Shown here one piece after another: positions 765 to 41,938 of a DNA stretch of 64,000 nt. How positions within the stretch are numbered: the stretch's first letter is position 1; each line of letters begins with the position of its first letter. The stretch is taken from NCBI GenBank assembly GCA_025061735.1, contig JANXAU010000040.1:44259-108258 (forward strand), read 5' to 3'. This DNA comes from Candidatus Bipolaricaulota bacterium. Its GTDB lineage: Bacteria; Bipolaricaulota; Bipolaricaulia; RBG-16-55-9; DRXL01. A model generated the notes under the pieces. The model was not told the origin of the DNA. It worked only from the letters and a program-made list of their open reading frames with translations, and made no database searches. A program made the translations under genes and the position numbers.

Positions 765-1505
765 ATGATCCTCAAAACCGTCGGCTTGATCCTCCGTGCG
801 ATCAAGTTTCGCGAGAGCGATCTGATTCTCACGGTGCTCTCACGCGACTACGGCAAGATCGCGCTGATCGCCAAAGGAGCACGGCGCCCAGAGAGCAAGT
901 TCGGCGCGGCCTTGGATCTGCTCACCCTGAGCGAATTGGTCTTCTACGAGGGCGAGAATCTTAAGCTGCTCAAAGAAGCGAGCATTCTCAATGACTTTCG
1001 CGATCTCAAACGCGAGTACGAGAGACTAGAGACAGCCCTGCACGCCGCGTCGCTCTTGAATCATTTGATCGAAGACGAGCACCCTGACCGCGCTGTCTTC
1101 GATCTCTGTGAAGACTTTTTATCTCATTTGGGGCATTTAAAGAAACTGCGCCTGGGGGAGTTGGCTTTTAAGCTGAAATTATTGAGAGCAGCGGGTCTGG
1201 CACCGCGGCTCAATCGTTGCGCACGGAGGGGGCACCGCTTGACCTCAGAGCTATGGTTCTCCACGCAGCACGGTGGCCTCGTCTGCGCCGAGTGCCATCA
1301 AGCCGGAGATGCCCGCATAGAGCCAGGAACAGCCCAGAGCTTAAAGATGCTCTTAGGCACTAGGTGGGAGCGGCTCGACCGGCTCGCGCTCTATGACGAC
1401 AAGCTAGAGATAGCCCATCGGCTCGTGGACGAGTTCATCGGCTATCACTTACGAGACGTCCGCCGCTCGCTCACATGCTCTCGAAGTAGCCCCCAACGCG
1501 AATGA
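765..1505 (+). CDS. recO: DNA repair protein RecO
   Basis: MILKTVGLILRAIKFRESDLILTVLSRDYGKIALIAKGARRP N-terminal OB fold; ORF track start is 747 but ATG 765 fits better. Confidence 0.85.
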   Translation: MILKTVGLILRAIKFRESDLILTVLSRDYGKIALIAKGARRPESKFGAALDLLTLSELVFYEGENLKLLKEASILNDFRDLKREYERLETALHAASLLNHLIEDEHPDRAVFDLCEDFLSHLGHLKKLRLGELAFKLKLLRAAGLAPRLNRCARRGHRLTSELWFSTQHGGLVCAECHQAGDARIEPGTAQSLKMLLGTRWERLDRLALYDDKLEIAHRLVDEFIGYHLRDVRRSLTCSRSSPQRE

Positions 1506-1566
1506 GCAAGATCGCGATCCCAATCGCGATCAGAAAGTTCCCTAGAGCCGTCAACAGCTCCGACAT
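1471..1566 (-). CDS. 31-aa hydrophobic single-TM microprotein (MSELLTALGNFLIAIGIAILLIRVGGYFESM)
   Basis: Start preceded by AGAGGAGGTGAGGCC (strong SD); TTGACA-N18-TATAGA upstream; hydrophobic core; overlaps recO 3' end antisense. Confidence 0.6.
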   Translation of the reverse strand: MSELLTALGNFLIAIGIAILLIRVGGYFESM

Positions 1567-1593
1567 GGCCTCACCTCCTCTGCCTTGGGCCTA

Positions 1594-1623
1594 TCTATAG
1601 CACAAAGGGCAACGGGTTGTCAA
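1594..1623 (-). promoter_or_regulatory. sigma70-like promoter for the 31-aa microprotein
   Basis: minus strand TTGACA (1618-1623), 18-bp spacer, TGC-TATAGA (1594-1599). Confidence 0.5.
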
Positions 1624-2897
1624 ATAGAACCTAAAGCAATATCTGAACGATACTGCATCCCCTCAAATTGGATCTTCTCGATAGCGGCATAGGCGCGCAC
1701 GCGGGCCTCGCGAAGGGAAGCTCCCAGCCCAACGACGTTGAGCACGCGCCCCCCCGCCGTGACGATCTTGCCCTCTTGGAGCGTCGTGCCCGCGTGAAAG
1801 ACAAGCGTACCCACGCTTCTCTCTCTCTGAAGAGGGAAAGCCTCCAGCCCCTCAATCTCAAGGCCCTTTTCGTACCGTTCGGGATACCCTCCAGAGGCCA
1901 AGACGACACAGACGGCGCTCATGGGCTTCAGCTTCGTCTCAAACCGCTCTAAGCGTCCCTCGGCGATCGCAAGATAGAGTTCAAGCAGATCGAAATCGAA
2001 TCTTGGCACCAAGACTTGGGTTTCGGGGTCGCCCCAGCGCACGTTGTACTCCAAGACGTAGGGGCCATCTTGCGTCCAGATCAGCCCAAAGTAGAGAATC
2101 CCTTCATAACTGATGTTCTCACGGCGCAGCGCGTCAAAGGTCGGCGCGACGATCTTTTGCACGGCCTCCTCGAGCATTCTTTGGGTCAGCCACGGTATCG
2201 GCGAGAGCGATCCCATCCCCCCGGTATTGGGACCCTGATCGCCATCGCGCAGCCTCTTATAGTCTTGAGCCGTGCCCAGCAACTTCCAACAATTTCCATC
2301 CGAAGCGACAAAGAGCGAGAACTCTCTCCCGACTAAAAACTCTTCGACGACGACGCGCTGCGACGCCGCGCCGAACTTTTTCGCGATCATGAAGTCTCTG
2401 AGTATCTGTTCTGCTTCGGAGTGCGTCTGAACGATAGCGACCCCCTTGCCGGCGGCTAGACCGTCGGCCTTGATGACCAGGGGAGTTGACAAGGTGCGGG
2501 CGAACGCGACGGCCGGCTCCCACTGGTCAAAGCTGCCGTGTCGCGCTGTGGGAATCCCGTGTTTGTGCATGAACGCTTTGGCTGCGACCTTGCTGCCCTC
2601 CAGAAACGACGCCTTCTGCGTAGGGGCAACAATTTTTAGATGCTCTCTCTCAAAGAGATCGCGAACCCCGGCGACGATGGGGGCTTCCGGGCCGACAACG
2701 GTCAAGTCGATCCGTTCTTTACGAGCAAACTCTACCAGAGCAGAGAGATCCTCGGCACCGATGGAGACGTTCTCGCCCAGCTGGGCCGTGCCGGCGTTGC
2801 CGGGAGCGATATACAAATTGGAGAGCTTGGGAGATTGGACCAGCCCCCATGCGAGGGCATGCTCCCGTCCCCCAGAGCCGATTAAGAGAACTCTCAT
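1620..2897 (-). CDS. purD: Phosphoribosylamine--glycine ligase
   Basis: MRVLLIGSGGREHALAWGL...PGNAGTA...KADGLAAGKGV; full-length GARS. Confidence 0.95.
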   Translation of the reverse strand: MRVLLIGSGGREHALAWGLVQSPKLSNLYIAPGNAGTAQLGENVSIGAEDLSALVEFARKERIDLTVVGPEAPIVAGVRDLFEREHLKIVAPTQKASFLEGSKVAAKAFMHKHGIPTARHGSFDQWEPAVAFARTLSTPLVIKADGLAAGKGVAIVQTHSEAEQILRDFMIAKKFGAASQRVVVEEFLVGREFSLFVASDGNCWKLLGTAQDYKRLRDGDQGPNTGGMGSLSPIPWLTQRMLEEAVQKIVAPTFDALRRENISYEGILYFGLIWTQDGPYVLEYNVRWGDPETQVLVPRFDFDLLELYLAIAEGRLERFETKLKPMSAVCVVLASGGYPERYEKGLEIEGLEAFPLQRERSVGTLVFHAGTTLQEGKIVTAGGRVLNVVGLGASLREARVRAYAAIEKIQFEGMQYRSDIALGSI

Positions 2898-2988
2898 ACT
2901 CGCTTGGAGTATAGCAGACGCTTCCCTGGAGAGCCAATGCTAGCGCTTGGCTTGCTTTCGCTGTATAGTAGAGCGACGGAGTTATACG

Positions 2989-3432
2989 ATGAAGACGCTT
3001 GTTCTTGGGTTGGGGAACGAATTGCTTGGCGATGATGCGGTGGGGATTCTGGCCGCGCGTATGCTCAGAGAGCGCCTGGGGAACAGAGCCGACGTCGTCG
3101 AGAGCGCGCTGTCGGGGATGGCCCTGCTCGATCTCTTGATGGGATACGAGCGAGCGATCATCATTGACGCGGTCAAAACGGGGCGAAGCGCTCCGGGGAC
3201 GATCTATGAACTCACGCCCGAAGATCTGAGCGCTGGGCTCGCCCCCTCCCCCCATTACGCGGGCCTGCCGGAGCTGATCGCCACCGCCAAGGCGCTCGCC
3301 GTGGATTTTCCCAACGAGATCAAGATCTTTGCCCTAGAAGTTGAAGATCCATATACTATCGGTGGGAGGCTCAGCCCCGCGGTTGAACAAGCCCTAGAAG
3401 GGCTTGTCCGCCGCGTTGAGGAAGACTGCTAG
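2989..3432 (+). CDS. Hydrogenase maturation endopeptidase (HyaD/HycI family)
   Basis: MKTLVLGLGNELLGDDAVGILAARML, VVESALSGMALLDLL, IIIDAVKTG motifs. Confidence 0.85.
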   Translation: MKTLVLGLGNELLGDDAVGILAARMLRERLGNRADVVESALSGMALLDLLMGYERAIIIDAVKTGRSAPGTIYELTPEDLSAGLAPSPHYAGLPELIATAKALAVDFPNEIKIFALEVEDPYTIGGRLSPAVEQALEGLVRRVEEDC

Positions 3433-3434
3433 TT

Positions 3435-3842
3435 ATGCACGAGTGGGCGCTGGCCGAAGCCGTCGTAGCGACCGCCAAGAGAGCCGCGCGCGAGCAACAG
3501 TTGCGCCGCGTCACGGGGATCACCGTTCGGCTGGGCGAACTGCAACAGATCGAGAGGGAGATTTTTAAGTTCGCGCTGGAGCAGATGCTCGCCCACGAAG
3601 ACGCTCTCGTGCGCGACGCGAAGGTCGTCTTGGAGAGAGAGCGCGCGCGCTTTCGCTGCCGTGTGTGTCACCGCGAATGGGACTTCCAAGCCGAGGAGCT
3701 AGGCTCAGAGATCGCTGAAGCGATCCACTTCATCCCGGAGGTCGCGCACGCGTATCTTCGTTGTCCGAGCTGTCGTAGCCCGGATTTTGACGTGATGGCT
3801 GGGCGCGGGGTTTGGCTGGCTTCTTTGGAGGGAGAGGAGTGA
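3435..3842 (+). CDS. hypA: Hydrogenase nickel incorporation protein HypA
   Basis: MHEWALAEAVV N-terminus, CRVC...LRCPSC zinc ribbon. Confidence 0.9.
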   Translation: MHEWALAEAVVATAKRAAREQQLRRVTGITVRLGELQQIEREIFKFALEQMLAHEDALVRDAKVVLERERARFRCRVCHREWDFQAEELGSEIAEAIHFIPEVAHAYLRCPSCRSPDFDVMAGRGVWLASLEGEE

Positions 3843-3843
3843 G

Positions 3844-4602
3844 ATGGACCCGCGCGTCGCGATCATCTCAGATCGACTGAAGAGCATCAAAAAAATTATT
3901 GCTATTGCAGCGGGCAAGGGCGGGGTGGGCAAGAGCACCATCGCGACGGGGCTGGCGCTCGTGCTCTCGCAGTTGGGCTACAAGATCGGGCTTTTAGATC
4001 TAGATTTCTACGGCCCCTCGTCGCACGTGATTTTGGGACTCTCCGAAGAGATTCAGCCGAGAGAAGAGCGCGGGATCGTTCCCCCCACGGTGCACGGGAT
4101 TGAATTGATGTCGCTGGTGTTCTACACAGGGAAGAACCCGACGCCGCTGCGCGGGCCGGATCTGACCAACGCTCTCATAGAGCTGCTGGCGATTACGCGC
4201 TGGGGGGATTTGGACTTTCTGATCGTGGACATGCCGCCGGGGATGGGGGAGACGACGCTTGATGCAATTCGATTCTTAAAGAATCCGAGCTTTCTCATCG
4301 TAACGACGCCGTCGCGTGTTGCTCACGAGACGGTGGGCAAGCTCCTCGCGCTCTTGAGCGAGCTGAACATCGCGATACTTGGGGTCCTCGAGAATATGCG
4401 CAGATCGAGCGACAGAGCGCGCTCGTCTTTTGGGGTTCGTGTTGTGGGGGAGCTGCCCTTCGATGAGGGGCTGGAAGACGCCCTAGGCGATCCTGAGAGG
4501 TTCTTACAGACGGAGTTTGCGCAACGGCTGCGCGAGATTGCCTCGGCTATTTTTCCGCTGCCAGAGCCACGAGCATCTCCACCGCCTTCGTTGCGACTCT
4601 GA
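3844..4602 (+). CDS. Mrp/MinD-type P-loop ATPase, candidate HypB-substituting Ni maturation ATPase
   Basis: AAGKGGVGKSTIATGLA, DLDFYGPSSH, DMPPGMGET; 1 nt after hypA. Confidence 0.85.
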   Translation: MDPRVAIISDRLKSIKKIIAIAAGKGGVGKSTIATGLALVLSQLGYKIGLLDLDFYGPSSHVILGLSEEIQPREERGIVPPTVHGIELMSLVFYTGKNPTPLRGPDLTNALIELLAITRWGDLDFLIVDMPPGMGETTLDAIRFLKNPSFLIVTTPSRVAHETVGKLLALLSELNIAILGVLENMRRSSDRARSSFGVRVVGELPFDEGLEDALGDPERFLQTEFAQRLREIASAIFPLPEPRASPPPSLRL

Positions 4603-5345: not shown

Positions 5346-5786
5346 TTAAATCTCGTGAATTATTCTATCTAAGACTTGGGAAACCGCGCAGGCAACCTCT
5401 GTAGACAGACCCTCGCCTGCCGCAAAGTTCTTCCCCTCGATGCCATAGACGATCAGGCTTTGGGGGAGTTTGCCCAACGTCCGCGCCAATTCTATCGCTT
5501 CCGCAAGTCCGAAATTGTGCGTCGAATAGCGAAAGAATCTCGTCGGGATCTCTTGACGGTGAGCCTCAAAGCGAAAGATCGTCCCCGGCGTCGCTCCCGA
5601 CTGCACAGCGTCAATCACAATGACGTTCTCTGCATCCTGCCAAGCTTCTATCAGAGCAGTGCCTTCGCCGCTCAGCTCTAAAATCTCAACGTTCCTGAGA
5701 TTCTTTTTGCGCAGCGCACGGGCGACGACCAGCCCTATGGCGTCGTCGCGACGATAGTCGTTCCCAACCCCGATGACCAGCGTCAT
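5346..5786 (-). CDS. Second hydrogenase maturation endopeptidase
   Basis: MTLVIGVGNDYRRDDAIGLVVARAL, ELSGEGTALIEAW, VIVIDAVQSGATPGTI. Confidence 0.85.
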   Translation of the reverse strand: MTLVIGVGNDYRRDDAIGLVVARALRKKNLRNVEILELSGEGTALIEAWQDAENVIVIDAVQSGATPGTIFRFEAHRQEIPTRFFRYSTHNFGLAEAIELARTLGKLPQSLIVYGIEGKNFAAGEGLSTEVACAVSQVLDRIIHEI

Positions 5787-14243: not shown

Positions 14244-15191
14244 ATGCTGCGCGCTTTGACACTCTTTGGATGTCTCGTAGCCCTGACGGTTTCGGTGGCG
14301 AGTCCGCAATCGGTCGTGCGGATTCTCAGCCCGCAGAGCACGATCTTCTCGTTGGACTTCAGCCCCGACGGCCGATGGGTGGCCGCCGGGTGTGGCAACG
14401 GGACGGCTTGGATCTGGGAGGTCTCAACGGGAAGGCCTGTGAGAGTGCTCAACGAGAGCTTGGGCACGGTCTTCGCGCTCGCGTTCAGCCCCGACAGCCA
14501 GAGACTGCTCACGGCCAACGGCGACAGCAACGTGGGCTATCTGTGGGACATAGAGAGCGGGCGCGCGCTCCTGAAGCTAGAGGGCCACGAAGGCTGGGTG
14601 CACGCCGCGGCGTACAGCCGCGACGGCAGAGTCTTAGTAACTGGCTCGGAAGACCGCACGATCCGAGTCTGGGATGCGACTAACGGGCGTCTGATCAGAA
14701 TTCTCACGGGGCATCGCAACACGGTCTTCGGGCTGGCGATCAGTCCCGACAGCCAGATCATCGCGTCAGCGGGGGGCGACGGCGAGGTGCGCCTGTGGGC
14801 GGTCTCCGACGGCACGCTGTTGGGCGTGCTGCCGGTGCGGGTCAATGCCGTCTTTGCCGTCTCGTTCAGCCCCGACGGGAAGAAGCTCGCGGCGATCAGC
14901 GGCGACGGCGTGGTGAGGGTTTGGGACGTAGCTTCTCAGAAGTTAATTCTCTCGCTGGCGGGGCATCGTGGGCGCAGCCACGGCGTGCGCTTCCATCCCG
15001 ATGGGAAGCGCCTAGCTTCCAGCAGCATGGACTGGACGGTCAAACTCTGGGACATCGAGAAGGGACAAGAGCTGAACGTCTTCACCGAGCACAAGGAGTT
15101 TGTGCTGGCGGTGGGCTTCAGTCCCGACGGCAAGCTCTTGGCGTCGGGCGGCGGGGACTTTCAGCTCATCTTGAGAGCGCTGGAGAAGTGA
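14244..15191 (+). CDS. Secreted WD40 beta-propeller protein
   Basis: Signal peptide plus repeated FSPDGK..A...D..VRVWD units. Confidence 0.85.
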   Translation: MLRALTLFGCLVALTVSVASPQSVVRILSPQSTIFSLDFSPDGRWVAAGCGNGTAWIWEVSTGRPVRVLNESLGTVFALAFSPDSQRLLTANGDSNVGYLWDIESGRALLKLEGHEGWVHAAAYSRDGRVLVTGSEDRTIRVWDATNGRLIRILTGHRNTVFGLAISPDSQIIASAGGDGEVRLWAVSDGTLLGVLPVRVNAVFAVSFSPDGKKLAAISGDGVVRVWDVASQKLILSLAGHRGRSHGVRFHPDGKRLASSSMDWTVKLWDIEKGQELNVFTEHKEFVLAVGFSPDGKLLASGGGDFQLILRALEK

Positions 15192-15200
15192 GCGTTGTTG

Positions 15201-16190
15201 ATGAGCGTCGTCGGCTACGGAGCAGCGATCCCGCGCAAGCGCATCTCGCTTGCGGAGATCAATCGGGCGTGGGGGCGCGCGGGAGGCCGCGGCGAGCGAG
15301 CCGTCGCCGCTTCTGACGAAGACGTCGTTACGCTCAGCGTCACAGCTGCGCGACGGGCGTTGGCTCATGCGAAGATTCCGCCGACAGAGTTAGGCGCAAT
15401 CTACGCGTGTAGCGTCTCGCTGGGCTACGGGGAGCACACGCTGGCGGGCAGCGTCGCGTTGGCGCTGGGTGCTGAAGGCCCGGTGACGCTCTGCGATTTG
15501 GGGCTTTCGACGCGCTCGGTCACGTCAGCCATTCAGTGTTGCGTCGATGCGATCCGGTCTGGGCGTATCGTCTATGGACTGGTCGTCGCCGGGGATGTTC
15601 TGCCGGCCAAGCCGGGTTCGGAGTCTGAGCTGAGCAGCGGCGCTGGAGCTGCTGCTCTCGTCTTGGGAAGCGGCCCCGGTGTAGCTGAGCTGGAAGGATT
15701 CGGTTCGCACGCGGAGGGCTTCATCGGGCGTTATCGTCCGGAGGGAGATTTTCCCCAGATGGACGACGAGCGCTTCGTCTTTCAGCAGGGGGTTGCGGTG
15801 CACGTGGCCCACGCGCTGCGCCGGCTGCTGGAGCGCACGGGGCTGAAGACAGATGCCTTCGCGCGCGCGGTCTTTGGCGCGCCGGAGCCGCGCTGGGGAG
15901 CGCGAGTCGCGCCCAAGTTGGGGCTGTCTGAAAGAGTCTTCACGCTGAGCGGGGAGATCGGCTCGGCGGGCTGCGCGATGCTCTTGCTCGATCTCATCGG
16001 CGCTTTGGAGCAGAGCCAGCCCAACGAGAAGATTCTCGTGATCTCGTGGGGGCCGGGGGGCAGCGACGCGCTGGCGCTCACGGTGCGCGAACGCTCGCTC
16101 TCGCTACCAACGGTCGCCGAACAAGTAGCTCACAAAGAGCTGATCACGTACCCGGAGTATCTGCGAGCGATGAGGCTCTTGGGAGGTTGA
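15201..16190 (+). CDS. HMG-CoA synthase-like protein (archaeal type), catalytic residues apparently substituted
   Basis: MSVVGYGAAIPRKRISLAEINRAWG N-terminus and operon with DUF35 and thiolase; C-to-T and H-to-G at active-site positions by manual comparison. Confidence 0.75.
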   Translation: MSVVGYGAAIPRKRISLAEINRAWGRAGGRGERAVAASDEDVVTLSVTAARRALAHAKIPPTELGAIYACSVSLGYGEHTLAGSVALALGAEGPVTLCDLGLSTRSVTSAIQCCVDAIRSGRIVYGLVVAGDVLPAKPGSESELSSGAGAAALVLGSGPGVAELEGFGSHAEGFIGRYRPEGDFPQMDDERFVFQQGVAVHVAHALRRLLERTGLKTDAFARAVFGAPEPRWGARVAPKLGLSERVFTLSGEIGSAGCAMLLLDLIGALEQSQPNEKILVISWGPGGSDALALTVRERSLSLPTVAEQVAHKELITYPEYLRAMRLLGG

Positions 16191-16192
16191 CG

Positions 16193-16582
16193 ATGCACAC
16201 GCCGCCCGTCTGGAGAATTGCGCGGGAGAACGCGCGCCTGATCGGCTATCGCTGTCGGCGCTGCGGGTTTGTAGAGTTCCCTGAGCCGAGAAAGACGTGC
16301 AAGCGCTGTCGGGCGCCCGCGGAGTTTGAAGAGATCTCGATGGGCACGCGCGGGAAGATCGTCTCATTTGTGGTGCAGCATCGTCTGCCGGAGGGGTTTG
16401 AGACGCCGCTGCCCTTAGCCGTGATAGACTTAGAGAACGGAGCGCGGGTGTATGGTCAGATCGTGGAGTGCAAGCCCGAAGAACTGACAGTGGGCTTAGA
16501 AGTCGAAGCAGATTTCAGGGTCTTTTATGACGATGCGGGCTTGCGCGTCTATTCATATAAGTTTCACCCAGTGCGAGGCTGA
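16193..16582 (+). CDS. DUF35 Zn-ribbon/OB-fold protein
   Basis: GYRCRRCGFVEFPEPRKTCKRC zinc ribbon followed by OB fold; start ATG 16193. Confidence 0.85.
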   Translation: MHTPPVWRIARENARLIGYRCRRCGFVEFPEPRKTCKRCRAPAEFEEISMGTRGKIVSFVVQHRLPEGFETPLPLAVIDLENGARVYGQIVECKPEELTVGLEVEADFRVFYDDAGLRVYSYKFHPVRG

Positions 16583-16585
16583 ACG

Positions 16586-17755
16586 ATGGCTCAGCATAGC
16601 TTGCGCAACAAAGTAGCGATCATCGGCGCGGGGATGATCAAGTTCGGTGAGCTGTTTGACAAGAGCTTCGAGACGATGATCGAAGAGGCCTATCTGAACG
16701 CTCTGAAGAGCGTAGACAAGGGTCTAGATCCCAAGGAGATCGAGGCGGCGTGGCTGGGCACGCTCTACCCGCCCCAAGGGAATTCAGGGGTCTTGCTCTC
16801 GTTCGCTACGGGGCTGTTTGGCATCCCCGTCACGCGTGTCGAGAACGCGTGCGCAACGGGCAGCGACGCGTTCCGCAACGCGTGTTTTGCCGTAGCGTTG
16901 GGTCTGTATGACGTGGCGCTCGTCGTCGGCGTGGAGAAGATGCGCGACGACGGCGGCGGGCTGATCCAACGGACGGCCGTGAAGCAGCTCTGGGGCGGGC
17001 GCGGCGTCACGATGCCGGCCTTCTTCGGCCTGCACGCAACGGCCTATATGCACAAGTATAAAATCTCCCGCGAAGAGATCGCGCTGGTCAGCGTGAAGAA
17101 CCATCGCAACGGCGCGCTCTATCCCTACGCGCACTATCGCTTCGAGTGCTCGGTCGAAGACGTGCTCAAAGCGCCCTATATCTCGTATCCCTTGGGATTA
17201 TATGACTGCTGCCCGGTCACCGACGGGGCGGCGGCTGTGCTGATCTGCCGTGCCGAGCTGGCTTCTCAATACACCGACAAGCCCGTCTTCGTCTTGGGGT
17301 CGGGCCTGGCGACCGAGACGTTCTTTCGCGGCGGGGATCTGACGAGCTTCCCGGCTACGCGATACGCTGCTCAACAAGCCTACGAGATGGCCGGCGTCAG
17401 CCCAGACGATATTGACGTCGCCGAGATTCACGACTGCTTCAGCATCACCGAGCTGATCAGCTACGAAGACTTGGGCTTTGCCCCTCCAGGGCAGGGAATC
17501 GCTCTTTTGAAAGAGGGGATCGTTCAACTCGAAGGCTCCAAGCCCATCAATCCCAGCGGAGGTCTCTTAGCCAAGGGGCATCCCATCGGCGCGACGGGCG
17601 TCGCTCAGATCGTCGAACTCTTTGAGCAACTGCGCGGGCAGGCCGGCCCCGTCCAAGTGAAGAACAATCCCCAACTAGCCCTGCAGCACAACATCGGGAT
17701 CGGGCGGACGGCTACGGGGTCGGTAAGCTGCGTTCATATCTTAGGGCGGGGCTGA
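16586..17755 (+). CDS. Thiolase family protein (archaeal acetyl-CoA acetyltransferase / SCP2-thiolase type)
   Basis: VENACATGSDAFRNA (nucleophilic Cys), HDCFSITEL, NPSGGLLAKGHPIGATG. Confidence 0.9.
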   Translation: MAQHSLRNKVAIIGAGMIKFGELFDKSFETMIEEAYLNALKSVDKGLDPKEIEAAWLGTLYPPQGNSGVLLSFATGLFGIPVTRVENACATGSDAFRNACFAVALGLYDVALVVGVEKMRDDGGGLIQRTAVKQLWGGRGVTMPAFFGLHATAYMHKYKISREEIALVSVKNHRNGALYPYAHYRFECSVEDVLKAPYISYPLGLYDCCPVTDGAAAVLICRAELASQYTDKPVFVLGSGLATETFFRGGDLTSFPATRYAAQQAYEMAGVSPDDIDVAEIHDCFSITELISYEDLGFAPPGQGIALLKEGIVQLEGSKPINPSGGLLAKGHPIGATGVAQIVELFEQLRGQAGPVQVKNNPQLALQHNIGIGRTATGSVSCVHILGRG

Positions 17756-23077: not shown

Positions 23078-23150
23078 GGATACTTCTACCATCTATTGAG
23101 CAATTCCGCTATAATGTTGTCATCTCGTCAAAAAGCAGGTGATTCAGCCC

Positions 23151-24134
23151 ATGCGCAAAATTTTTATGAGTCTCGCCGCGCTCCTCTCCGTGGTCTTACT
23201 GGTCTCTCTGAGCGCTTCTCTCGCCCCTGCGTCGCTGAGTTCGACGGCCATCGTTGGGGAGATCATCAGCCAAGTAGATGAGCAGAACTTAAAAACCCAT
23301 ATCTGTTACTGGCAATCCCAAGAGGGAGGCGAATCGTGCAACCCCTTGGGGTCGCGCTGGTCGTGCCTGCCCACAGCGATAGACCGCGCCCTCGACTACG
23401 GACGCCGCTACTTTGAGAGCGTAGGGTTGAGAGTGCGGGTAGATAATTACAGTTTGGCTTGCCGTGCTGGGCCTTCGAGCAATCTCGAGGCCGAGCTGCC
23501 CGGCACTGAAAGCACTAAGCTCGTGCTGATCACAGCCCATCTTGATAGCACCATCTTCGGTGTCAGCCCCAGCCAGCCAACCCCAGGAGCCGACGACAAC
23601 GCCAGCGGCAGCGCCGCCGTTCTAGAAGCCGCGCGCATCTTGAGCCAGTATCGCTTCAAACACACTATACGCTTTGTGCTCTTCACTGGAGAAGAGCAGG
23701 GCCTCATTGGGAGCCGGGCCTATGCGAGTCGTCTGGCGAGCCAAGGCGCTCAGATCTTGGGAGTCTTCAATATGGACATGATCGGCTACGACAGCGACAA
23801 AGACGGGGTGTTTGAGATTCACGCGGGGACGCGCGAAGGCCCGCTCGCGCTCGCCCAATTGATGGTCAACACGCTCAAGGCTTTTGAGATCAAGCTGACG
23901 CCCGATGTCTTAGAGAACGGCGCGACCAACCGCAGCGATCACGCCGCGTTCTGGCGCTATAACTATCCCGCCGTCTTGGTGATCGAGGACAGCGAGTACG
24001 GCAAGACCGACGATTTCAATCCCTACTATCACTCGGTGAACGATACGCTGGACAAGCTCGATCTCTCGTATGCCAAGCGCATTGCGCAGGCTGTGATTGG
24101 CGCGGCAGCGCAGCTTGCCGAGCCAACCCCATAA
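23151..24134 (+). CDS. M28-family zinc peptidase (paralog 1)
   Basis: LITAHLDS, GADDNASGSAAVLEAAR, LFTGEEQGL, DMIGYDSD. Confidence 0.9.
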   Translation: MRKIFMSLAALLSVVLLVSLSASLAPASLSSTAIVGEIISQVDEQNLKTHICYWQSQEGGESCNPLGSRWSCLPTAIDRALDYGRRYFESVGLRVRVDNYSLACRAGPSSNLEAELPGTESTKLVLITAHLDSTIFGVSPSQPTPGADDNASGSAAVLEAARILSQYRFKHTIRFVLFTGEEQGLIGSRAYASRLASQGAQILGVFNMDMIGYDSDKDGVFEIHAGTREGPLALAQLMVNTLKAFEIKLTPDVLENGATNRSDHAAFWRYNYPAVLVIEDSEYGKTDDFNPYYHSVNDTLDKLDLSYAKRIAQAVIGAAAQLAEPTP

Positions 24135-24160
24135 AGAGCCTGCAGAAGGAGGTGAACTCC

Positions 24161-25141
24161 ATGCGCTCGGTGCTTGTAGTTGGTCTGGCACTCTGGGGAG
24201 GTCTAGGGATAATCTCTACCGGCTTCGTCCAACTACAGTCCTCTCTCATCGCGGAAATCATTCAGCAAGTTGACGAAGAGCGGCTGCGGGAGCACATCTG
24301 TCAGCTTCAGTCCCGCGAAGGCGGCGAGTACTGCAACGAGGACGGCTCACGCTGGTCTTGCGATGCGAGCGCCATCGATCGTGCGACCAACTACGCACGC
24401 CAGTACCTTGAAAGCTTGGGGCTGAAGATGCGCCTTGTGCCGTACTCTCTTGATTGCCGACAAGGGCCTTCTTACAACCTCGAGGCGGAGCTGCCCGGCA
24501 CCGAAAGCGCTAAGCTCGTGCTGATCACAGCCCATCTCGACAGCATTATCTTGGGCATCCGCCCAAGCTATCCAGCTCCAGGAGCCGACGACAACGCCAG
24601 CGGCAGCGCGGCTGTGTTAGAAGCCGCACGCGTCTTGAGCAAGTATCGCTTCAAACACACTATACGCTTTGTGCTCTTCACCGGCGAAGAGCAACGTATG
24701 ATCGGTAGCAGCGCCTATGCTTCGGAGCTAGCCCGTAAGAACGTTTCGATCCTAGGGGTCTTCAACGTGGACATGATCGGCTACGATAGTGACAATAACG
24801 GGTTCTTTGAGATATGGGTAGGAATTAGATCTGAAGAGGTGTTCAAGGGATCGTGGCGCCTGGCTGAGCTGATCACCAAGACCATCGAAGCCCATAAGCT
24901 GAAGCTGGTTCCGGAAGTGCTCAATGATCCGGGAAGAGGTGGGGATCAAGCGCTTTTTTGGCGATGGGGATATGCGGCTGTCATGGTGATCGAAGACTCC
25001 GAGTACGGCGCGACGGATGATTTCAATCCGGGCTATCATACTCCTCTCGATGTGCTGCGTTTTCTCAATTTGGCTTATATGAAGCGTATGGCGCAAGCTG
25101 TCATCGGCGCGGCAGCGCAGCTTGCCGAGCCGGTGCCGTAG
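24161..25141 (+). CDS. M28-family zinc peptidase (paralog 2)
   Basis: Same motifs as the preceding gene; SD GAAGGAGGTG; nearly identical DNA blocks. Confidence 0.9.
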   Translation: MRSVLVVGLALWGGLGIISTGFVQLQSSLIAEIIQQVDEERLREHICQLQSREGGEYCNEDGSRWSCDASAIDRATNYARQYLESLGLKMRLVPYSLDCRQGPSYNLEAELPGTESAKLVLITAHLDSIILGIRPSYPAPGADDNASGSAAVLEAARVLSKYRFKHTIRFVLFTGEEQRMIGSSAYASELARKNVSILGVFNVDMIGYDSDNNGFFEIWVGIRSEEVFKGSWRLAELITKTIEAHKLKLVPEVLNDPGRGGDQALFWRWGYAAVMVIEDSEYGATDDFNPGYHTPLDVLRFLNLAYMKRMAQAVIGAAAQLAEPVP

Positions 25142-39526: not shown

Positions 39527-40501
39527 CTAAGCCCCCTTCAGCTTCTTGATCTCGGCGATCAGCGCCGGGACGATCTGATGGAGATCGCCGATGACGCCGT
39601 AGTCAGCCCTTTGGAAGATCGGCGCTTCGGGGTCTTTGTTGATCGCCAAGATCTTTTTCGAATTTTTGCAGCCGACCATGTGCTGGATCGCCCCGGAGAC
39701 CCCCACGGCGATATAGAGATCCGGAGCGATCTGTGTTCCCGTTTGGCCGATCTGATCGGAGTGCGGGCGCCAATTGTTGCTGGTGGCCACGCGGGTCGCC
39801 CCGACGGCTGCGTTGTTGAGCAGGCTCGCAAGCTCTTCGAGCATCTTGAAGGCCTCGGCGCTGCCCAAGCCGCGCCCTCCCCCAATGACGACCTTCGCTT
39901 CGGTCAGCGAGATGCCCTTCTTCTCTTTGCGCACCAGTTCTTTCATTCGGACGCGAAAGTCTCGATCTTCAAGCGTCACGGTGAGCGCCTCTACGCTCGG
40001 CTCCGCCCCAGCCAAGGGCTGAGCCGCGACCGCGTGGGGTTGCAACGTCAGCAACTGGGGGCGGCTCAAGATCTCGATCTCTTCCAGGAGCGAACCGCCC
40101 CAGTTGGTGCGCGTCACGCCTAGGAGTTCGCCGTTCTCAACGAAAAATTCGGTGCAGCCGGTGGCCAAGCTCAGATCGAGCCGCGCGGCGATCCGCGCCA
40201 GCCAATCGTTGCCCGTCTCGGTGCCCGGCGCCAGCACGATCGTTGGTCTTTTCTTCTGGATCGCTTCGGCGGCGACCTTGGCAAACGCCTCGGGGATATA
40301 GCCCGTGAGTCTTGGGTCTTCGACGACGCTCACGCTCCGAACCCCCTTCAGCGTCGGCGCCAGAGCGCGCACGCCGCTGCCGACGAGCAGCGCTTCTGTC
40401 GCATCGTTGAGCTTTTGCGCCAGATCGCGCGCCGCTGTCAGCGCCTCCAAAGACGGCTCCGTCAGCCTCTGATTCGCTGTCTCTACCAAGACAAAGATCA
40501 T
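39527..40501 (-). CDS. etfA: Electron transfer flavoprotein alpha subunit
   Basis: MIFVLVETANQRLTEPSLEALTAARDLA; VVIGGGRGLGSAEAFKMLEELA; GQTGTQIAPDLYIAVGVSGAIQHMVG. Confidence 0.93.
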   Translation of the reverse strand: MIFVLVETANQRLTEPSLEALTAARDLAQKLNDATEALLVGSGVRALAPTLKGVRSVSVVEDPRLTGYIPEAFAKVAAEAIQKKRPTIVLAPGTETGNDWLARIAARLDLSLATGCTEFFVENGELLGVTRTNWGGSLLEEIEILSRPQLLTLQPHAVAAQPLAGAEPSVEALTVTLEDRDFRVRMKELVRKEKKGISLTEAKVVIGGGRGLGSAEAFKMLEELASLLNNAAVGATRVATSNNWRPHSDQIGQTGTQIAPDLYIAVGVSGAIQHMVGCKNSKKILAINKDPEAPIFQRADYGVIGDLHQIVPALIAEIKKLKGA

Positions 40502-40502
40502 T

Positions 40503-41252
40503 TTAGATCGCCCCCAGTTCGCGCAGCTTCGCCACGACCTTCCCAACGGCTTCTACGCCTTGGCCCAATATCTCGAGCTGGCGCCCCTCTTGCGGCTTCT
40601 TCAATCTCCTACGCGCGATCGGGGAATCGCCTCGCGCGGGCTTTCTCTGCTCGATGGGGATCTTCTTGGCGGCCATGATCCCCCGCAGACTGGGGTGTCG
40701 CGGCACGTTGATCCCCTCTTTTACCGTAAAGACCGCGGGCAGCGACACTTCATAGACCTCCCAGCCCTCCGAGCTTTCGCGCTTGGCAATCGCCTTGCCG
40801 TTCTGGATCTCCAGCGCCTTGATCCCGGAGACGCACGGCAGATCTAACAGATACGCCACGCGCAGGCCTACTTGGTAATTACAAGCGTCGGCCGATTCGT
40901 TGCCAAAGAGCAAGAGATCGAATCCCATGGGCTTGACGGTCTCGGCGATCGCGTGAGCGACGGCTTTAGGGTCCCAAGACTCATAATCGTCGGCCTCGAG
41001 CAGAATGGCGTTGTTGATGCCCTTCGCTAGTGCTTCGCGTAACTGCTCTTGAGCGGCCGCCGGCCCCAACGTCAGCACCGTCGAGCTGCCGCCGTGCTTC
41101 TCTATGATGCGAATCGCCTCTTCGACCGCACACTCCTCGTGCGGGCTGATCGTAAATCCCAAATTCGTCGTATCTACGCGCTTGCCGTCAGCCGTCAGCC
41201 GAAAGCCCCCTCCGGTGTCGGGGACGCGCTTGATGCAGACCAGCACCTTCAT
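40503..41252 (-). CDS. etfB: Electron transfer flavoprotein beta subunit
   Basis: MKVLVCIKRVPDTGGGF; ISPHEECAVEEAIRI; FGNESADACNYQVGLRVAYLLDLP. Confidence 0.93.
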   Translation of the reverse strand: MKVLVCIKRVPDTGGGFRLTADGKRVDTTNLGFTISPHEECAVEEAIRIIEKHGGSSTVLTLGPAAAQEQLREALAKGINNAILLEADDYESWDPKAVAHAIAETVKPMGFDLLLFGNESADACNYQVGLRVAYLLDLPCVSGIKALEIQNGKAIAKRESSEGWEVYEVSLPAVFTVKEGINVPRHPSLRGIMAAKKIPIEQRKPARGDSPIARRRLKKPQEGRQLEILGQGVEAVGKVVAKLRELGAI

Positions 41253-41938
41253 AGAAGACTCCTTTCGATCTGTCTCGACGGTACGCCCTCTGCAAAGGGC
41301 GCTTGAGCATATAACGGCTCTAGTTCCCACACTTGATCGCGCGGGTCGCTGAGAAATCGTCGGATCCCCAAGTGAGCGATCACCGCCCCCGAAGGCCGAT
41401 TGAGCGCCGCGGGAGCGACGATAGCAACCGACTCCAGCGCAGCGCGATGGGCTTCTGCTCCCGAACCGATGCAGAGCATCTTCTCGGCCCTGGCGCTCAG
41501 CTCCGTCTGCAAGCGGCCAATAGAGAGCGAGAGCGCTTCGCTCAGGGGAGTCTGTTGAGCGTAGAAGACCCGATAGACCAGATCGCGTCGGTCTTTCAAA
41601 ACGACACAGATGGGTTTAGGCCAGAACGCTGCTTGGACGGCGTACGCCTCGGCGGTCGGGACGCCCACCAGCGGCCGCCGGAGCGTCTGGGCCAAGCCCT
41701 TGGCGACGGCCATGCCGATTCTGAGGCTGGTGAACGATCCCGGCCCCAACGCTACCGCGATCAGATCTAATCCGTCTCGTCGGAGCTGGTGAAGGCGAAG
41801 CAGATGATCCATGGCGGCGAAGAGCAGCTCGCCCGGCCCCCGCGTCGAGGAGTAGAGCACCTCCCCCAAGATCTTCTCCCCTTGAGCGAGGCCAACGCTC
41901 CCCTGCTCGTGGCTCGTCTCGATGCCTAGGGCGACCAT
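41249..41938 (-). CDS. tsaB: tRNA t6A biosynthesis protein TsaB
   Basis: ALGIETSHEQGSVGL; ALGPGSFTSLRIGMAVAKGLA. Confidence 0.88.
   Translation of the reverse strand: MVALGIETSHEQGSVGLAQGEKILGEVLYSSTRGPGELLFAAMDHLLRLHQLRRDGLDLIAVALGPGSFTSLRIGMAVAKGLAQTLRRPLVGVPTAEAYAVQAAFWPKPICVVLKDRRDLVYRVFYAQQTPLSEALSLSIGRLQTELSARAEKMLCIGSGAEAHRAALESVAIVAPAALNRPSGAVIAHLGIRRFLSDPRDQVWELEPLYAQAPFAEGVPSRQIERSLL

Follow-up and report, generated by a model that had tools for sequence, protein, structure and literature searches.

An operon of a Candidatus Bipolaricaulota bacterium encodes an intact SCP2-type thiolase, a DUF35 protein, and an HMG-CoA synthase-like protein without the catalytic triad

RESULTS

Organization of the locus

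The window, i.e., the whole 64,000-nucleotide stretch of DNA that was analysed, carries a tight operon of three genes, designated A, B, and C here:

15201..16190, + strand: gene A, HMG-CoA synthase (HMGCS)-like subunit, 329 aa from ATG 15201
16193..16582, + strand: gene B, DUF35 (zinc ribbon plus OB fold) subunit, 129 aa, Cys21/24/36/39
16586..17755, + strand: gene C, SCP2-type thiolase, 389 aa

The positions and the shared strand agree with those of the first-pass annotation; 2 bases separate A from B and 3 bases separate B from C, and gene A could instead start at one of the in-frame TTG codons at 15195 and 15198. A scan for promoters and terminators returned none on the + strand, and no pathway genes were found beside the operon. 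A WD40-repeat-like gene (14244 to 15191) ends 9 bases before A; its membership in the operon was considered and rejected, since in the nearest relative a gene on the opposite strand lies between the WD40-like gene and A. Elsewhere in the window, judged by eye, two similar adjoining genes of about 330 aa (23139 to 25138) look like tandem-duplicated M28-type peptidases, and ORFs at 2947 to 3839 and 5349 to 5786 resemble hydrogenase maturation proteins (protease-like and HypA-like).

Gene A has lost the HMGCS catalytic residues

Gene A matched the NCBIfam family NF003274 over residues 3 to 327 with 218.1 bits (E = 1.7e-64) and TIGR00748 with 176.9 bits (E = 6.5e-52), both below the respective equivalog cutoffs of 244 and 353.35, and its best sequence match in the PDB was 6esq_I, the archaeal HMGCS of Methanothermococcus thermolithotrophicus (E = 1e-37). 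The E values for NF003274 and 6esq_I exclude chance similarity. The AlphaFold model of A (pLDDT 90.8) was closest to 6et9_I (TM-score of 0.90, normalised by query) and 6esq_I, followed by CsATase (9skh), PhlA (5mg5/5m3k), and MucABC (9vbo/9vbt). Thus, by both sequence and fold, gene A is a full-length homologue of the archaeal-type HMG-CoA synthase.

The positions of the HMGCS catalytic residues were located in A by alignment with 6esq_I:

15414..15416, + strand: position of the catalytic Glu, GTC (Val) in A; SESHPYA in HMGCS
15510..15512, + strand: position of the catalytic Cys, ACG (Thr) in A; FACKAG in HMGCS
15876..15878, + strand: position of the catalytic His, GGC (Gly) in A; FHQPNGK in HMGCS

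Aligning A with this crystallised archaeal enzyme had been proposed in the first-pass annotation, and the result bore out its claim that the Cys, His, and Glu of the active site are all replaced, here by Thr, Gly, and Val, respectively. Among the eight orthologues described below, the Glu position is occupied by V, L, I, or T and the His position by G, Q, or H, while the Cys position is T, A, or S in orthologues and T, A, G, R, E, Q, or P in the haloarchaeal and Sphingobium relatives. The three residues are missing together from every inert form of A, apart from a lone His retained in two orthologues, and since all three positions vary among the eight orthologues, no replacement residue is fixed in A. 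An archaeal locus with intact Glu, Cys, and His (L068) served as the positive control, and its triad fell in register in the same alignment, which indicated that the alignment is able to recognise an active enzyme.

Other cysteines of A (numbered from TTG 15198) were considered as replacement nucleophiles. C114 and C115 of the AIQCC motif, which had been put forward as a possible catalytic substitute, are C/A and C/A/G, respectively, among the eight orthologues, and the second of them aligns with a noncatalytic Cys of 6esq_I; this candidate therefore fails. C71 and C99 are unconserved, and C259 is Cys in seven of the eight orthologues, Ser in the remaining one, and mostly Ala elsewhere. Judging by these alignments, none of the remaining cysteines of A is conserved well enough to stand in for the lost one.

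We then considered the genome, a 93% complete assembly, in which neither an HMGCS (by PF01154) nor an HMG-CoA reductase was found and the DXR of the MEP pathway is present. A hidden mevalonate pathway was rejected on these grounds within this assembly, and HMG-CoA synthesis for isoprenoids is thus not the function of the operon. The overall fold and full-length similarity would suit an A protein that is still an active HMG-CoA synthase working with other residues, but its three catalytic residues are lost and variable, it has no conserved replacement Cys, and the genome combines a MEP-pathway gene with the lack of HMG-CoA reductase; we regard this explanation as very improbable.

Gene C encodes a thiolase with a complete active site

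Gene B matched PF01796 with 55.5 bits (cutoff, 27.1), and its best PDB match was 6esq_E (E = 1.4e-21). The four cysteines of its zinc ribbon (Cys21/24/36/39) are invariant in the orthologues. Gene C matched PF22691 with 142.8 bits, and its best PDB match was 6esq_A, an acetoacetyl-CoA thiolase (E = 1.3e-73; 1.8e-84 by profile). Since the best PDB sequence matches of A, B, and C all lie in 6ESQ, the resemblance of the operon to the archaeal thiolase-DUF35-HMGCS assembly, already remarked upon in the first-pass annotation, holds for all three subunits. The active-site features of C are as follows:

16850..16852, + strand: Cys89, the thiolase nucleophile (ENACATGS), kept in all examined Bipolaricaulota, haloarchaeal, and Sphingobium partners of inert A
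17429..17437, + strand: His282-Asp283-Cys284, HDCF motif of SCP2-type thiolases, kept in partners of inert A wherever covered
17579..17581, + strand: His332, GHP motif, kept in partners of inert A wherever covered

The ENACATGS Cys is retained, as had been noted before, and HDCF and GHP are likewise present. These motifs show that the active site of C, an SCP2-type thiolase, is complete.

Gene A is maintained together with B and C in the order

Seven other genomes of the order were found to encode an orthologue of A, giving eight with the window. The window and six of these relatives have the three genes side by side; the seventh relative, G004, has A on one contig and a B-C pair on another. 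Of the order's 19 genomes, eight have A, and precisely these eight have a C of at least 75% identity, a count that takes the genomes as independent; in one of the eight, G018, C is cut by a contig end. The identity of C among orthologues is 75 to 93%. In two genomes without A, thiolase pieces 40 to 55% identical to C were seen (G010:C25:113872-115116 and G014:C32:21919-23172), and these possibly represent a related thiolase that works without an inert subunit.

Comparison of the window with its nearest relative, G002, yielded dN/dS values of 0.16 for A, 0.07 to 0.10 for B, and 0.03 to 0.05 for C. Among orthologues, A shows the lowest conservation of the three proteins, which is the one point in favour of a decaying pseudogene; however, its dN/dS value indicates purifying selection, its frame is open in eight genomes, and its fold is predicted with high confidence (pLDDT as above), such that decay is most improbable. 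A is therefore kept as a gene, and it is less constrained than C, as would suit a subunit that has no active site.

These results bear on two suggestions of the first-pass annotation, a pseudo-enzyme scaffold and a new condensation chemistry. A scaffold-like role was supported, as the catalytic positions vary and the gene is kept with its partners, although the precedent of PhlA had gone unmentioned; for a new condensation chemistry in A, no evidence was found in the sequences, in which the active site of thiolase C appears ordinary and complete.

Relatives in haloarchaea and on plasmids

A genome-wide pattern scan revealed a haloarchaeal relative in Salinirussus. A survey of 195 genomes of the haloarchaeal class added many others, from which 30 loci were read in detail; a C homologue adjoins A at every one of the 30. 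At eight of these loci, A is a separate gene with B and C after it, the arrangement seen in the window, and their C proteins are 59 to 64% identical to the window C. At 21 loci, A is part of a single long frame (about 470 to 510 aa) with a DUF35-like domain, judged by length and in many cases also by a direct match, and the thiolase lies upstream. The remaining locus, L068, is the one with the intact HMGCS. Plasmid records added three more haloarchaeal copies and one Sphingobium fusion, all labelled only as hypothetical proteins. In the thiolases beside inert A, the Cys, HDCF, and GHP were kept wherever covered.

L068 (archaeal genome G121; 1501 to 4022 of the reverse-complemented locus) is a mirror image of the window module: its HMGCS is intact, whereas in the adjoining thiolase-like protein Asp replaces the nucleophilic Cys and HDSY stands in place of HDCF.

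In the phylogenetic tree, PhlA joined the active HMGCS (SH-aLRT of 90), and the Bipolaricaulota and haloarchaeal forms stood apart. In the topology test, a single clade of all inert A forms, including PhlA, was not rejected (p-AU of 0.24), so that one loss of catalysis is as compatible with the data as repeated losses.

A conserved Glu-Arg pair in the former active site of A

Two residues of A (numbered from ATG 15201) covary among the inert forms:

15432..15434, + strand: Glu78 of A, conserved in inert forms, covaries with the Arg at 15513-15515
15513..15515, + strand: Arg105 of A, directly after the lost Cys; R in 30 of 34 sequences, whereas intact HMGCS has Lys

The pair is E or D with R or H in 31 of 33 inert sequences and T with L in the other two; in intact HMGCS, it is V with K. 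The simple reading of this pattern is a salt bridge that would close the old pocket, with few independent changes behind it. The conservation of the pair could also point to a positive role beyond structure. There is a small chance that the former active site with its Glu-Arg pair is a binding site which steers thiolase C to a substrate or reaction new for thiolases in the lineage from Bipolaricaulota to haloarchaea. Along the same line, the pocket of A may have been repurposed, such that the pair and its neighbours bind a second substrate or carry out a new chemistry with C. Nearly all inert members retain Glu and Arg, and both residues change together in the two that lack them, as this would predict, but A has no conserved nucleophile, the co-change of the two residues amounts to few independent events, and a buried salt bridge would yield the same pattern; we thus consider a repurposed pocket doubtful.

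Acyl-CoA metabolism genes in the genome and beside related modules

The genome contains six acyl-CoA dehydrogenase matches, several enoyl-CoA hydratases, and FadB-like genes. Related modules lie amid acyl-CoA dehydrogenase genes in Natrinema, Halomarina BCD28, Salinirussus (neighbours read from ORFs, without annotation), and Sphingobium, and some of these four neighbourhoods add ETF, MaoC, SDR, or AMP-binding genes; in Halomarina PSR21, only some acyl-CoA genes are found near the module. Since acyl-CoA genes occur both in the genome and beside related modules, C is likely a thiolase of acyl-CoA metabolism. As the window operon has no neighbouring pathway genes, this assignment leans on genes elsewhere in the genome and on remote relatives.

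Two further observations concern genes of this kind. At 39530 to 41330 of the window, two overlapping minus-strand ORFs have starts that, by eye, read like EtfA and EtfB. In the same genome (C63), locus L117 (5084 to 8435) holds two adjoining thiolase-like genes that both lack the nucleophilic Cys, the HDCF Cys, and the GHP His, with Gly/Thr, Pro/Arg, and Asn/Asp at these positions; two DUF35-like genes lie downstream and a FadB-like gene lies beside the pair, and similar tandem thiolase-like pairs occur in several genomes of the order.

These data also bear on whether ABC is an acyltransferase of the PhlABC/MucABC type, transferring an acyl group onto a carbon of a phenolic or tetramate-like molecule, in which A would be inert too. 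Such enzymes have the same three-part make-up with an HMGCS-like A, and 9skh, 5mg5/5m3k, and 9vbo/9vbt are the next matches of the A model after 6et9/6esq. However, C scores 287 bits against archaeal acetoacetyl-CoA thiolase versus 109 bits against PhlC, with SCP2-thiolases also nearer; no biosynthetic or natural-product genes were found among the ORFs neighbouring the operon; and the sole match to the chalcone-synthase family (PF00195) in the genome is part of a FabH-like gene (C43), just over the cutoff. PhlA also falls outside the clade of A in the tree, although a common clade is compatible with the topology test (p-AU as above). An acyltransferase of this type is therefore unlikely.

DISCUSSION

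We reasoned that A, B, and C probably form a complex in which thiolase C is the sole catalytic subunit, acting in acyl-CoA metabolism, and A is an inert partner derived from HMGCS. Directly supported by the data are the loss of the triad in A, the intact thiolase site, the strict co-occurrence of the genes, the tight operon, the A-B fusions in relatives, and the purifying selection. By analogy with homologues, the three proteins would assemble into a single complex resembling the archaeal thiolase/DUF35/HMGCS one, in which C, via Cys89/His332 and HDCF, would make or cleave a carbon-carbon bond of an acyl-CoA substrate. The homologues suggest CoA-dependent cleavage of a 3-ketoacyl-CoA rather than biosynthesis as the more likely direction and substrate. 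A, as a pseudo-enzyme, would complete the assembly around B and probably shape the CoA/acyl pocket where A, B, and C meet, in the way that PhlA does for PhlC.

Complexes with an inert A are a known kind, since PhlABC has an inert A subunit and MucABC has the same architecture. What appears undescribed in the literature searched is this branch, its spread over a bacterial order and haloarchaea, the A-B fusions, and the apparent acyl-CoA setting; the search, which lay largely outside subscription journals, turned up no paper on the modules of haloarchaea or Bipolaricaulota. The modules show that inert HMGCS-like subunits accompanying a thiolase are widespread beyond antibiotic-type acyltransferases. 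In haloarchaea, these subunits are often joined to DUF35 in one protein, and a tie to acyl-CoA metabolism is apparent. Similarity-based annotation could wrongly assign an HMG-CoA synthase to such genomes, and the module lends itself to a clear test of the reason for which a thiolase would require an inactive partner.

Comparison with known systems

The benzoylsuccinyl-CoA thiolase BbsAB (7PXP) combines a DUF35 protein with an SCP2-type thiolase in acyl-CoA degradation, as B and C may do; unlike the window operon, it has no HMGCS-like subunit among the chains found in 7PXP. The thiolase/DUF35/HMGCS complex of M. thermolithotrophicus (6ESQ and 6ET9) has a thiolase with the same Cys/HDCF/GH set as C, whereas its HMGCS keeps Glu, Cys, and His and serves the mevalonate pathway, in contrast to the window A, which lost these residues in a genome without HMG-CoA reductase. 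MucABC of Streptococcus macacae (9VBO/9VBT) is a three-subunit acyltransferase that acetylates tetramates (mutanocyclin/reutericyclin) (PMC10161427); its HMGCS/KASIII-like subunit matches the A model and is only about 20% identical to A.

PhlABC (PpATase, 5M3K/5MG5) and CsATase (9SKH) resemble the ABC complex proposed here in combining an inert HMGCS-like A, a DUF35 B, and a thiolase-fold C as the sole catalytic site, but PhlABC is a natural-product acyltransferase, of a type marked by an (A2C2)2B4 assembly and by acyl transfer independent of CoA, and PhlA branches separately in the tree, although the support for this is limited. PhlA was noted as an inactive member of the thiolase superfamily already in 2010 (PMC2954200); its Cys is replaced by Gly115 and its Glu by Cys83 (PMC6392133, PMC12955522), and its inertness was established by the crystal structure and mutants (PMC6392133). 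Consistent with catalytic residues being present only in PhlC (PMC6392133), the C88S variant of the CsATase PhlC subunit was inactive (PMC12955522). PhlABC activity nevertheless needs all three genes, and its three subunits enclose one cavity (PMC6392133).
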